A stretch of 44,576 nucleotides of DNA. Source: a virus. The stretch lies in IMG/VR virus record IMGVR_UViG_3300048589_000333, positions 1-44,576 of that record; one strand, written 5' to 3'. Position 1 is the first letter of the stretch; each line of letters starts with the position of its first letter. Of this stretch, positions 36,451-44,576 are shown piece by piece. A program made the translations under genes and the position numbers. The notes beneath the pieces were generated by a model that was given only the letters and a program-made list of their open reading frames with translations, searched no databases and had not been told where the DNA came from.

Positions 36451-37251
36451 CTACAGCATTGCGAGTTGCTTCAACTCGTTGTGTGGAATGCCTTTTTTGA
36501 GGCAATTAAGCAGCACAATGAGTCGTCTTGGGTCGTTTGTTTCTTCTGGTGCAATGTCGTGTGTCCAGTTTGCGCCTAGCATGGTTCCTACCAATTGCAC
36601 GTCACGCCCATTTGGTGCGATGCGTGCAAACATATGCAGATCTGTTGTTCGTTTCCGCAATACAATTTTTTCGCCGCTCCATCTTCGTGACACAGAGGCA
36701 ACATCTACTGCAATTAGTTTTCCAGGAATCTTCAAAAAGAAATCTTCCTTAGACCACTTCTCCCAATCACCGGCGTTACTGGCTGGCCTGTAGAACTCTG
36801 GATAATTTTCACGAAACCAGTCCGTTACATGTTGCTCAATGACTAGACCCTTGCAGCGCGTATGCATATCAGTTTTTTCTTGCATGTTGCCTTGCGTACG
36901 CATCAAAGTGACATACGCGCCTTCGATGCCGGATGTGACATTGCCTTCGATTGTGATGGCTGTATCTTTAGCTGATGAGTTGAACAGGTCTAATTGTTGA
37001 TTTTGAAACCATCGGCGGCGCGCCATCAAACAATATGGCTTTTCAAGGTAAACGACACCGTGTTGCCTGTGCATGGGCAGCTTCTCGCGTACATCCTCGC
37101 TTACTTTATCCATTGCCACGTCTTTGACTGAGTAGCCAAGTAAATCTATGGCCTCTTTGGTCAGGTCGTTGTAGCGCATCGGCATCAATTTGCTTTCGAG
37201 CACGCGTACACATGCCGGAAACAAATCGGTCATTGAAGGTACAATGCTCAT
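36451..37251 (-). CDS. HARE-HTH protein with restriction-nuclease-like domain
   Basis: ATG at 37251 overlaps the ParB-methyltransferase stop (ATGA). The 266-aa product starts MSIVPSMTDLFPACVRVLES; residues 10-45 (A-C-V-R-V-L-E-S-K-L-M-P-M-R-Y-N-D-L-T-K-E-A) fit a HARE-HTH domain. The second half has V-I-E-Q-H-V-T-D-W-F-R, D-F-F-L-K-I-P-G-K-L-I-A-V-D-V-A-S, then K-R-T-T-D-L-H-M-F, like a PD-(D/E)XK core in which the ExK is degenerate (V-D-V). HARE-HTH domains are known to sit on nucleases and modification-sensing proteins. The gene looks AT-rich. Function with the methyltransferase is inferred. Confidence 0.65.
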   Translation of the reverse strand: MSIVPSMTDLFPACVRVLESKLMPMRYNDLTKEAIDLLGYSVKDVAMDKVSEDVREKLPMHRQHGVVYLEKPYCLMARRRWFQNQQLDLFNSSAKDTAITIEGNVTSGIEGAYVTLMRTQGNMQEKTDMHTRCKGLVIEQHVTDWFRENYPEFYRPASNAGDWEKWSKEDFFLKIPGKLIAVDVASVSRRWSGEKIVLRKRTTDLHMFARIAPNGRDVQLVGTMLGANWTHDIAPEETNDPRRLIVLLNCLKKGIPHNELKQLAML

Positions 37252-38519
37252 TCTCCAACCCTCCAGATAATCAACTCGCGCGTGATGACAAGCAGCTTGC
37301 GGTTTTCCTTTGCCCAGTTCACCTGCTGAGCGTTGTACTGTTCTGTCGAGTACGGAACAGACACACGGTTTTCAAGTGTGAGTTTCTTGTTGCCGACATT
37401 GCGCACCAAGTCGGTTACGTGGTCAGCAAACTCGCGGCCCGGCGTTTTCCATTGCGTAGGCTGAATCAATAGCGCAATCACGCCTTTGGACTGCCGCTTT
37501 GCAATGTCTCTAACGATACCGGTCAACGTGTCGGTAAACTGGTTAAGCTCCATGTTTGCCAAGTCGGTTGGATCGTTGCTGTATTGTCCTTCTGCCTGCT
37601 TCCAGTACGGAGGATCAAGGTAGGTAAGCGTCACCTGTGACCAGTTCCTATTGAGGTTTGGCGCGCCGTCAAGTACTAGGTCATGCTTGCGAATTTCGTT
37701 CTCACGTTCCACGATGGGCTTGCGGTCGCTGACACAGTAACGGCGTAGGCGTTTTCGACAAACGTCAATCGTCGCACCACCACCGGCAAACGGATCAACT
37801 ACGATGTCAAACGGCTGTGTGTAGAGGTACAGCAGGTTATCGACAATCGCCTGTTCGGAGTTGCCGAAGTGACTCACGCCGTTGGTTTTCTTGGCAAACG
37901 TCCATACGTTGTACAGCGGGGGAACGTAATCAGAGTCCATGTAATCCGATGATAGTTTCAGATTTTTTGGCAACGTTTCCGAAATATCCGAAAGTGCATC
38001 TTTTACAGGCTGAACAGACAAATCTAACGCCTCTGCGATTTCCTCGTATGTCATCGCAGCCATCCACATGTTGAAAATGCGTTCCTTGCGTTCCTCTCTG
38101 ATTTGCTTGTCAACGTCGCCAAGATAGCTTTGCACTGAGCGCAAGGAAACAGAAAGCGTCTGCGCAATGGCCTGCTTATCCATGCCAGTACCGGCGTTAT
38201 AAAGCCGGATCGCCATCTTGCGCTTGTCCTGCTCGCCAAGTTGCAAGCCATGGGAGGCATTGCGCTGAATTGCTAATGCAAGCAATTCCAGATCGCTATT
38301 GGTCTGCGTGATGGTGACGGCGATTTCGTCGGCTTCCATCTTGCGGTGAGCCGTCCAACGGTGAAAGCCGTCGATCAATTCATTGTGCTGATTGATTTCG
38401 ATAGGTGGTAAGACTTCCAGATTTTCAGCATAACGCTGGATCATTGCCGGATCGGACTTGATACGAGGATACAAATCCTCGCGATAGACAATCTCAGAAA
38501 CCAGTTTTGTACCAGTCAT
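37248..38519 (-). CDS. ParB-domain DNA methyltransferase
   Basis: ATG at 38519 is used because GAGG lies about 10 nt upstream. The 423-aa product has a ParB N-terminal domain (N-E-L-I-D-G-F-H-R-W near residue 48), an HTH (D-K-Q-A-I-A-Q-T-L-S-V-S-L-R-S-V-Q-S-Y), then a methyltransferase with motif I V-V-D-P-F-A-G-G-G-A-T near 243 and motif IV T-Y-L-D-P-P-Y-W near 303. ParB-methylase fusions occur in phages and plasmids. It is followed by the HARE-HTH nuclease-like protein, so a restriction-modification or modification-directed module is plausible. Confidence 0.88.
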   Translation of the reverse strand: MTGTKLVSEIVYREDLYPRIKSDPAMIQRYAENLEVLPPIEINQHNELIDGFHRWTAHRKMEADEIAVTITQTNSDLELLALAIQRNASHGLQLGEQDKRKMAIRLYNAGTGMDKQAIAQTLSVSLRSVQSYLGDVDKQIREERKERIFNMWMAAMTYEEIAEALDLSVQPVKDALSDISETLPKNLKLSSDYMDSDYVPPLYNVWTFAKKTNGVSHFGNSEQAIVDNLLYLYTQPFDIVVDPFAGGGATIDVCRKRLRRYCVSDRKPIVERENEIRKHDLVLDGAPNLNRNWSQVTLTYLDPPYWKQAEGQYSNDPTDLANMELNQFTDTLTGIVRDIAKRQSKGVIALLIQPTQWKTPGREFADHVTDLVRNVGNKKLTLENRVSVPYSTEQYNAQQVNWAKENRKLLVITRELIIWRVGE

Positions 38520-38538
38520 GGTTAGCATTCCTCAGAAA

Positions 38539-42453: not shown

Positions 42454-42722
42454 TACTGCACATCCTCACGGTGCTCGTTGATCCATGAACGAATCAGGAT
42501 ACCAACCGATGACGCCGCAATGACTGCAATCACCGTCACCCACGCTTGCCAATCCAACACGGCAATCAGCAACAGCAGGTCAACGCCGATACCAACCACA
42601 ACCGTGAGCCACGTTCTACGCATGGCGAGCCACTGCCCGAAGGTGTGCTTTTGGAGAAACAACGCCCAAAGAGCACCCCAAACGCCCGCTGCAACGACAG
42701 TAGCGGCAACAACGTGTGTCAT
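42453..42722 (-). CDS. Three-TM membrane protein, 89 aa
   Basis: ATG at 42722 overlaps the ribbon-helix-helix stop (ATGA). Product MTHVVAATVVAAGVWGALWA and on has three hydrophobic segments, about 3-23, 38-57 and 60-78, with a basic C-terminus. Small three-TM proteins in phages can be holins, but the early position here (second gene of the early operon) argues for another role, such as superinfection exclusion. Confidence 0.7.
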   Translation of the reverse strand: MTHVVAATVVAAGVWGALWALFLQKHTFGQWLAMRRTWLTVVVGIGVDLLLLIAVLDWQAWVTVIAVIAASSVGILIRSWINEHREDVQ

Positions 42723-42910
42723 GATTGGAGCGTAAGTCGTTCGTCGGAGAAGCGGCGAGCCTCTTGACGAATCAAGCGGCGAATCGTCGCACTCAGATTG
42801 ATGGACGTTGCACCGCTGATTTCTGCGTCACGCTCAGCGATTTTGCTGAGTGCTTCGTAGTCATCATTGGTAACTTGTGCGTTCACGAATTTCATCGGCT
42901 GTTCTTGCAT
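42719..42910 (-). CDS. Ribbon-helix-helix-like protein, 63 aa
   Basis: ATG at 42910 has GGGGGAAAC upstream. Product MQEQPMKFVNAQVTNDDYEA then L-S-K-I-A-E-R-D ... I-N-L-S-A-T-I-R-R-L-I-R-Q-E-A-R-R-F: a strand (F-V-N-A-Q-V) plus two helices, as in CopG/Arc. First gene of the early leftward operon. A regulator at the start of the early transcript is expected; its target may be one of the operator families in the switch region. Confidence 0.72.
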   Translation of the reverse strand: MQEQPMKFVNAQVTNDDYEALSKIAERDAEISGATSINLSATIRRLIRQEARRFSDERLTLQS

Positions 42911-43003
42911 GTTTCCCCCGTCGTTGGTTTCGCCGCCGCCCTGCCGTTCCAAGTTGCTGTGAGCAACTCCCCGGAACCGTCACGTACAGGCGCAGCGGCC
43001 TTT

Positions 43004-43017
43004 GTAACTCTGGTAAC
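43004..43017. promoter_or_regulatory. GTWACC-type palindrome, early leader site
   Basis: GTAACTCTGGTAAC (reverse complement GTTACCAGAGTTAC), just downstream of the early promoter start; matches the group inside the early genes. Confidence 0.65.
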
Positions 43018-43025
43018 GATTTTTT

Positions 43026-43039
43026 GTTACCGTAGTTAC
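43026..43039. promoter_or_regulatory. GTTAC palindrome at early promoter +1
   Basis: GTTACCGTAGTTAC overlaps the predicted start point of the early promoter and forms an imperfect inverted repeat with 43004-43017. Confidence 0.65.
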
Positions 43040-43068
43040 ATCTTAGCAGATAACGGGTAAATTGTCAA
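43040..43068 (-). promoter_or_regulatory. Early leftward promoter
   Basis: TTGACA (43063-43068), 17 bp, TAAGAT (43040-43045) with extended TGC. It reads into the ribbon-helix-helix gene. Its -35 overlaps operator arm 43067-43081. Confidence 0.9.
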
Positions 43069-43106
43069 GACTTATATAAGACTTGTGGGAATCTTATATA
43101 AGTCTT
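43067..43106. promoter_or_regulatory. Paired operators of XRE-recombinase switch
   Basis: AAGACTTATATAAGA (43067-43081) and its perfect reverse complement TCTTATATAAGTCTT (43092-43106) each contain palindrome CTTATATAAG; centres are 22 bp apart (two helical turns). One arm covers the -35 of the leftward promoter, the other the -35 zone of the rightward one. Confidence 0.88.
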
Positions 43107-43119
43107 CACAAATTTTTCA

Positions 43120-43128
43120 TGATATAGT
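43120..43128 (+). promoter_or_regulatory. Rightward promoter of XRE-recombinase gene
   Basis: Extended -10 TGATATAGT, no good -35, so it probably depends on the extended box. Shine-Dalgarno AAGGGGGA follows at about 43136-43143. Confidence 0.55.
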
Positions 43129-43146: not shown

Positions 43147-43740
43147 ATGCGCATCAAGCAACTAAGAGAACAGTACGGATACAGTCAGGAAGGCATCGCC
43201 GGTATCGTCGGCATGTCGCAGACAACGTACAGTGGTTGGGAAAAAACATTTCCTGAGCAGTTGACGCGCTTGGCGGCACTGGTCAAGCATTATGATGTAA
43301 GCACCGATTACCTTTTGGAGTTGACGAACGATCCAACGCCTGCCGAAGTCGCCGCCATTCTCAAAGAGGTAGACAAATCGTCAATTTGGACAACCAGAAC
43401 CGGCAAGGAGACCACCTCGAAGCGGCCCACGGCATTGAGAGACAAGGCCATCATTCTCACGCTGTTTGCCACACGAACCGGCGAGCCGTTGAACCGTTCC
43501 AACCTACGCAAGCTGATTGTCAGGTTGGCGGATCGTGCAGGCGTGCGCAATGCGTCCGTGCATCGCTTCCGCCACACCTTTGCCGTTAGCTTTCTGCGCA
43601 ATGGTGGCAATGTCTTTGCGCTCCAAGAGATACTTGGCCACGCCCGCATTGACACCGTGAAAATCTATGTGCGGTTGGCTGAGCGTGACTTGGCCGATGC
43701 GCAGCGCCGTGCATCACCCGTCGACAACTGGCGACTCTGA
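43147..43740 (+). CDS. XRE repressor fused to truncated tyrosine recombinase
   Basis: The 197-aa product starts MRIKQLREQYGYSQEGIAGI. Residues 1-66 are a classical XRE HTH (S-Q-E-G-I-A-G-I-V-G-M-S-Q-T-T-Y-S-G-W-E). Residues about 96-197 are the C-terminal half of a tyrosine recombinase: H-R-F-R-H-T-F-A, I-L-G-H, Tyr in K-I-Y-V-R-L and a tail R-A-S-P-V-D-N-W-R-L. The box I Arg and the beta-sheet Lys region are missing: a start of that domain (L-R-D-K-A-I-I-L-T-L-F-A-T) is joined straight to R-T-G-E-P-L-N-R-S-N-L. So it likely binds DNA but cannot recombine alone. It lies beside its own operators. Convergent with the gene at 43714. Confidence 0.88.
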   Translation: MRIKQLREQYGYSQEGIAGIVGMSQTTYSGWEKTFPEQLTRLAALVKHYDVSTDYLLELTNDPTPAEVAAILKEVDKSSIWTTRTGKETTSKRPTALRDKAIILTLFATRTGEPLNRSNLRKLIVRLADRAGVRNASVHRFRHTFAVSFLRNGGNVFALQEILGHARIDTVKIYVRLAERDLADAQRRASPVDNWRL

Positions 43741-44052
43741 AAGCGCAATCCCGAACGTCCCTGGTGCAACCCGCTCCACCGCTTCCATGATCTGCGTGAT
43801 CGCCGTCGCCGCCGCAATCATATCCGCCATTTGCAGCGCAACCGGCGCAATGTTGGATTGGTAATACTTCCAGAGTTCAGGATCATGGAGTTTTCCGCCC
43901 GGTGCATAGTCTGCTTGAAAGCGGTTGAACAATCCTAGCGCCTGTTGTAGATTCGGATACACCCCAAAGCGCAGGCTGTCCCGCAGTTCACCCCGCCTGC
44001 GGTGATACTCCGTAAATCTCTGTTCTTGTTCGAGTGTCGTGATTTCAATCAT
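43714..44052 (-). CDS. Unknown tail-operon end protein, 112 aa
   Basis: ATG at 44052 is chosen from the start M-I-E-I-T-T-L-E-Q-E-Q-R-F after the appendage gene. Product is helical with R-R-R-G-E-L-R-D-S-L-R-F-G-V-Y and a Y-Y-Q-S-N-I-A-P-V-A-L-Q-M-A-D segment, and overlaps the recombinase end by 27 nt. It is the last gene of the leftward tail operon once ends are joined. No family recognised; chaperone for the appendage is one possibility. Confidence 0.65.
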   Translation of the reverse strand: MIEITTLEQEQRFTEYHRRRGELRDSLRFGVYPNLQQALGLFNRFQADYAPGGKLHDPELWKYYQSNIAPVALQMADMIAAATAITQIMEAVERVAPGTFGIALSESPVVDG

Positions 44053-44059
44053 CGCATCC

Positions 44060-44575
44060 TCACGCCTGATAGACTCCAGAAAATTGCAAAATTGTTGAGT
44101 TGCCGAAGGCAGCATCTGTTAGTTGTGCAATGGTTGCCGTTGCTGCTGTAGCGCCATATAGAAGAATGCTGGTAGAATTATCGGCAATTCCGCCAACCAT
44201 TGTCACCAACGAACTAGTCATGCTAACCCAACGAAAAGCCAACGTGCTATTTGGATTGTTAGCGGATGTCAGCGGCAATCCTGTAATTGCAGCATTGCCA
44301 GTTGCGCTCCCCTTGCTGGACAAGCGGATATCCGCCACGACAAAAACCAACGGACCAAAACGAGAATACCGTGCAGTTCTTGCCGAGTACGTAATGCCTG
44401 TTGAAACGCCACCAAATTGTAATTCAGGTGTCCATGTCCCCACTGCATACGCCATATCAACGCCACCAATTTGCAGCGCCGCCACGTTGATCTTGCTCGC
44501 TGTCGTGTTGGCCGTCAACACCGCCGTCCCCGCTGCGTTCTGAATTTGCACAGCCGTCGTGCTGTCCGCTGCCGG
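44060..44575 (-). CDS. Tail appendage protein, C-terminal part (enters at right end)
   Basis: The frame is open to base 44575 and continues upstream of the first Met-like codon (P-A-A-D-S-T-T-A-V-Q-I-Q-N-A-A-G). The body has G-T-W-T-P-E-L-Q-F-G-G-V-S-T-G-I-T-Y-S, then Y-S-R-F-G-P-L-V-F-V and L-S-S-K-G-S-A-T-G-N-A-A-I-T-G-L-P, a pattern common at the C-end of phage appendage proteins (beta-sandwich tip). It fits as the end of the 74-codon fragment at 1-222, with two nucleotides missing at the join. Confidence 0.82.
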   Translation of the reverse strand, partial: PAADSTTAVQIQNAAGTAVLTANTTASKINVAALQIGGVDMAYAVGTWTPELQFGGVSTGITYSARTARYSRFGPLVFVVADIRLSSKGSATGNAAITGLPLTSANNPNSTLAFRWVSMTSSLVTMVGGIADNSTSILLYGATAATATIAQLTDAAFGNSTILQFSGVYQA

Positions 44576-44576
44576 T

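Follow-up and report, generated by a model that had tools for sequence, protein, structure and literature searches.

A single reading frame joins an XRE helix-turn-helix to a tyrosine recombinase remnant at the repressor position of a virus genome

Results

The fusion gene and its domains

The window, that is, the whole stretch of DNA analysed, was a complete IMG/VR record of 44,576 bases that carried tail, head, portal and terminase genes. Between a small divergent early gene and a convergent gene lay a fusion gene with an XRE helix-turn-helix (HTH) at its N-terminus and a tyrosine recombinase part at its C-terminus (Table 1). The gene started with ATG, and a GGGGG Shine-Dalgarno-like run lay just 5' to it. 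The HTH_3 match scored 37.5 bits versus a curated Pfam cut-off of 23, and the identity of the HTH to phage repressors reached about 45%. The RstR/DicA-type repressor models of NCBIfam matched residues 2-76, covering the HTH and linker, with scores below the family cut-offs. Phage_integrase (PF00589) matched residues 102-178 with an E-value of 1.5e-16, spanning profile positions 92-169 of 172. The protein had no dimerisation domain of the RstR/DicA or LexA-like kind at its C-terminus, where the recombinase remnant lay instead. The N-terminal core-binding domain of the recombinase was missing as well, with the XRE HTH standing in that position, while the C-terminal recombinase tail was kept.

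Table 1. Coordinates of the features at the fusion locus, numbered along the window
Feature	Position	Strand	Basis or remark
Small divergent early gene	42719..42952	-	ribbon-helix-helix-like by eye; 36% identity to same-place gene of G401
Leftward sigma-70-like promoter, TTGACA-17-TAAGAT	43040..43068	-	promoter scan; -35 touches first palindrome
Candidate operator region	43059..43114	.	23-nt inverted arms, 10 nt apart, enclosing two CTTATATAAG palindromes
Possible extended -10 (TGATATAGT) for fusion gene	43120..43128	+	read from sequence
XRE-tyrosine recombinase fusion gene	43147..43740	+	single intact ORF, 197 aa
XRE helix-turn-helix, residues 3-56	43153..43314	+	Pfam HTH_3, E 2.4e-9
Recombinase part before box I, residues 66-106, ends at deletion point	43342..43464	+	alignment, 71 integrases
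CGCTG at L106/F107 junction, putatively common to both parental breakpoints	43460..43464	+	comparison with integrase relatives
Recombinase part after deletion	43465..43737	+	PF00589 match and invariant columns
Retained residue H139	43561-43563	+	invariant column in alignment
Retained residue R142	43570-43572	+	invariant column in alignment
Retained residue H165	43639-43641	+	invariant column in alignment
Retained residue Y174	43666-43668	+	invariant column in alignment
Convergent gene, synteny anchor	43714..44115	-	58% identical to gene beyond integrase in G401

The internal deletion

The fusion was aligned with 71 related intact integrases; XRE rows were misplaced when added to this alignment, and that version was discarded. 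Over residues 66-197 the fusion was collinear with the integrase catalytic domain, starting at the helix that precedes box I and ending at the C-terminus, and a single gap, located between L106 and F107, interrupted the recombinase part. With the integrase L015 as reference, the missing stretch was 64 residues long (VDTGLRASEL...GKGDKER...TEPL), and it was present in all full-length integrase relatives examined. The left flank of the gap read AII-TL-(V/L)D... in these relatives and its right flank (D/E)PLF..., where the fusion read ATTCTCACGCTGTTTGCC. Both the box I Arg and the beta-strand Lys lay inside this deletion. The HxxR, H/W and Tyr of boxes II-III were kept as H139, R142, H165 and Y174. 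The internal join is consistent with a deletion at about five putatively shared bases, CGCTG. We considered whether the fusion was a still-active integrase and rejected this, as it has neither the box I Arg nor the beta-strand Lys. Judged by its residues, the protein is best read as catalytically dead, and strand cleavage and exchange by it are expected to be absent.

The preliminary description of this locus had reported an XRE HTH followed by a recombinase with its Tyr, and this was borne out by the two Pfam matches and the four retained residues. The deletion of the box I Arg and the segment after it, also claimed there, corresponded to the 64-residue gap. The term "recombinase C-terminal half" was accurate in that this half was present, but the recombinase sequence begins before box I and is rather a catalytic domain with a hole in it; the earlier account of what was lost was likewise incomplete, since the core-binding domain was gone too. 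The alignment with full-length integrases that the description had proposed thus gave a single gap, filled in every full-length relative examined. Homologues with the segment in the same frame, which it had regarded as contrary to a deletion, did occur as unfused integrases, and they show the ancestral state without refuting the deletion.

Conservation and predicted structure of the remnant

The frame of the fusion was open throughout, and none of 15 highly conserved columns of the integrase alignment was violated. A relative-rate count gave 14 unique changes in the fusion versus 12 in its intact sister L102, and the branch leading to the fusion was unremarkable among the integrases. The conserved columns and the ordinary rate exclude a long neutral decay and are equally compatible with a recent deletion. 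The remnant therefore bears no sign of decay, and selection and a recent event would fit equally well. In an AlphaFold model of the fusion, which informs on the fold of the remnant and not on oligomers, the remnant had pLDDT values of about 74-97 by blocks of ten (fair to good), and the XRE part was poor because the alignment held no XRE homologues. The intact L015 domain was modelled at 91.8 overall. A PDB fold search returned XerH/XerA-like and other integrases as the best matches, none of them below E 0.001.

Regulatory DNA upstream of the fusion gene

The two CTTATATAAG palindromes were located at 43071-43080 and 43093-43102, and their spacing of 22 bp is near two helical turns. The stretch 43067-43106, proposed earlier as a footprinting target, contains both (AGACTTATATAAGNCTT). 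None of 100 shuffles reached as many matches to the longer palindrome pattern. The second palindrome was located at the expected -35 of the possible promoter of the fusion gene, whose extended -10 was not picked up by the promoter scan. The pair at the divergent promoter looks like the operator pair of a repressor and is a candidate for one; the divergent position with palindromes at an early promoter, as for an XRE repressor, was recognised through consensus matches.

When viral contigs were searched with the operator pair, unrelated loci were returned. CTTATATAAG pairs with the same 22-bp spacing occurred in three unrelated viral contigs (L199, L200 and L201), with no XRE gene near the pairs in any of the three. 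The motif also resembles the sites of SdhR, a GntR family regulator (PMC4494728). Because of these XRE-less contigs and the likeness to SdhR sites, the assignment of the motif to the fusion protein is one that we infer. Just downstream of the leftward promoter lay a perfect array, GTAAC-4-GTAAC-8-GTTAC-4-GTTAC (43004-43039), which none of 100 shuffles produced and which is possibly the site for the product of the small divergent gene. A Pfam search with that product gave no match.

A collinear genome with separate XRE and integrase genes

IMGVR_UViG_3300048839_000848 (G401) was collinear with the window, with a capsid protein of 57%, a portal of 48% and a head protein of 35% identity, and with more genes in the same order. 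In G401, the interval bounded by the homologues of the small divergent gene and the convergent gene contained a discrete XRE gene and, about 3 kb from it on the same strand, an intact integrase, with further genes lying in between; the same interval of the window contained the fusion alone. The fusion occupies the repressor position of G401, divergent from the short early gene. Since the XRE gene and the intact integrase are separate in G401, on the same strand and in the same interval, the fusion is most readily understood as the product of a deletion, and from this comparison it very probably arose from an ancestral order of XRE repressor and downstream integrase. The earlier proposal of a deletion product is thereby well supported, both by G401 and by the retention of the segment in the full-length relatives examined. 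The simplest account requires two or more deletions, of which one fused XRE to the integrase and another fell inside the integrase. An XRE gene in tandem with an integrase gene is also found in Aeromonas phage A051, and the order is an ordinary one. The recombinase part was most closely related to integrases of Chloroflexota phages and genomes, and the host of the virus is taken to be a Chloroflexota-like bacterium.

Search for further fusions

No second fusion was found in viral contigs queried with the whole protein, the XRE part or a degenerate junction pattern, nor in GTDB species genomes, nor among the matches listed for 396 genomes of one class. In phages and plasmids none was found either, and no record there covered 80% of the query. 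Short-ORF matches were followed as possible fusions and ruled out as integrase fragments or frameshifted integrases. In Anaerolineae genomes, the integrase genes L078, L092 and L096 were fragmented or frameshifted. None of 20 capsid relatives tested had a close relative of the fusion, and the helicase and ParB-methylase genes used as bait led to no phage with a shared early region. A 16.7-kb contig from another sample (L108, IMGVR_UViG_3300048592_000103) had a capsid protein 99% identical to that of the window; a search of this contig gave no match to the fusion. XRE-integrase fusions were absent from the open-access literature searched.

Genome ends and other genes

A tail-fibre-like frame overran both ends of the record (1-240 and 44060-44576, both on the minus strand). 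This suggests that the genome is circular and was cut within a repetitive fibre gene, and so that it is probably almost complete. IMG/VR classes the record as linear. Apart from the fusion, the window gave no PF00589 match, and it gave no PF00239 match. The virus would thus probably carry no working integrase of either kind. The protein encoded at 37248-38528 (minus strand) had ParB-like, HTH and partial N6_N4 methylase matches; its relatives, 47-60% identical, were found in 21 viral contigs, which had no other tested early gene in common with the window.

Discussion

The fusion is likely a working repressor on the evidence of its HTH, its position and the DNA upstream of it. In the proposed sequence of events, one in-frame deletion would have joined the HTH and linker of the repressor to the integrase catalytic domain, and a second would have removed the 64 residues around box I, leaving a dead hybrid at the repressor position. 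Its HTH would bind both palindromes in the region that separates the divergent promoters, and the bound hybrid would shut the leftward early promoter and restrain its own synthesis. The helical recombinase remnant would stand in for the lost C-terminus of the repressor and may help two dimers to sit side by side. The earlier suggestion of a lysogeny switch regulator fits the position and the regulatory DNA; we infer DNA binding, repression and any role of the remnant. Taken whole, function included, the statement that a deletion-born, catalytically dead hybrid acts as the XRE-type repressor of this phage seems to us evenly balanced. A contribution of the remnant to that function is possible; the earlier description had put forward dimerisation or DNA synapsis as what it might do. 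It is a more doubtful step to suppose that the helical remainder of the integrase was reused as the oligomerisation domain of the repressor, merging two genes into one switch protein at the price of site-specific integration, and we offer it only tentatively.

A repressor of this kind has precedent. The crystallised master repressor MrpR (YopR) of the Bacillus phage SPbeta has the fold of a tyrosine recombinase but no longer functions as one, and the authors of that study suggested that such recruitment is more widespread (PMC10516654). Like MrpR, the fusion is derived from a recombinase and has lost catalytic residues while keeping the catalytic Tyr. However, in MrpR the core-binding and full catalytic domains are kept and bind DNA, and the residues were substituted (PMC10516654), whereas the fusion lacks the core-binding domain and the box I segment and has an XRE HTH as its DNA-binding part. 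A recombinase fold does not in itself imply dimerisation, given that MrpR runs as a monomer (PMC10516654). With XRE phage repressors of the RstR/DicA/P22 C2 type the fusion shares the HTH, the linker and the divergent position with palindromes; it differs from them in its recombinase-derived C-terminal part and its NCBIfam scores below cut-off. The Chloroflexota integrases L102, L015, L069, L017 and L002/L004 were 50-63% identical to it over the shared residues, but in them the core-binding domain, box I Arg and beta-strand Lys are all present, and none is fused to XRE. In animals, Crypton-derived DUF3504 proteins retain dead tyrosine-recombinase domains in transcription regulators (PMC3212892). 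Those proteins are eukaryotic, ancient and conserved, with substituted residues in a retained domain (PMC3212892), whereas the fusion is single, carries a deletion and may be young.

The main rival, and a strong one, is that the fusion is a recent neutral accident. The integrase would have been lost by deletion, leaving a frame open by chance; the HTH alone would repress with a passive tail, or the phage would be strictly lytic and the gene on its way out. We give this explanation a substantial chance, though one short of even. That the fusion is a single case in the collections searched counts against the repressor reading and for this one. The lack of any other recombinase in the window and the decayed integrase pieces in Anaerolineae genomes also speak for the accident, and the absence of decay fits a recent event. 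Against it, the candidate operator and promoter are intact and both deletions kept the frame, although the latter is weak because it would happen by chance in 1 of 9 cases. An error of assembly or sequencing, with an intact segment or two separate genes in the true genome, is improbable: the fusion does come from one metagenomic contig, which the near-identical L108 cannot confirm, but the frame is open across both joins and the putative shared junction sequence of about 5 nt is far below an assembler's word.

Protomers of tyrosine recombinases exchange their C-terminal helix, and the fusion keeps both the C-terminal tail and the four family-conserved residues. The remnant, with its C-terminal helix and Tyr, might then dock on the host Xer or on the integrases of competing phages and interfere with recombination, leaving the HTH to control its own synthesis only. 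We regard this as very improbable, since the protein has no core-binding domain, which is needed to sit on recombination sites. The reading as a repressor remains the one that we prefer.

Dead tyrosine recombinases are already known as regulators, as in MrpR and the Crypton-derived proteins, but time has usually erased the steps that led there. G401 preserves what was likely the ancestral arrangement, so that the transition of two genes into one hybrid regulator can be followed directly and is testable. If the remnant works, a recombinase domain deprived of box I and the beta-sheet can still be an interaction module. The fusion may show how a dead enzyme joins a gene switch, or it may be a fresh genetic accident.

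Repressor genes related to that of G401 were also compared. L002 (XRE gene at 421) and L004 (XRE gene at 768) encode related repressors whose C-terminal halves are near-identical and whose HTH halves differ, an apparent swap of operator specificity. The XRE protein of L002 versus that of G401 showed the same pattern, a shared C-terminal half and a different HTH half. The shared C-terminal halves and differing HTH halves of the two related contigs point to an exchange of repressor modules within this group.
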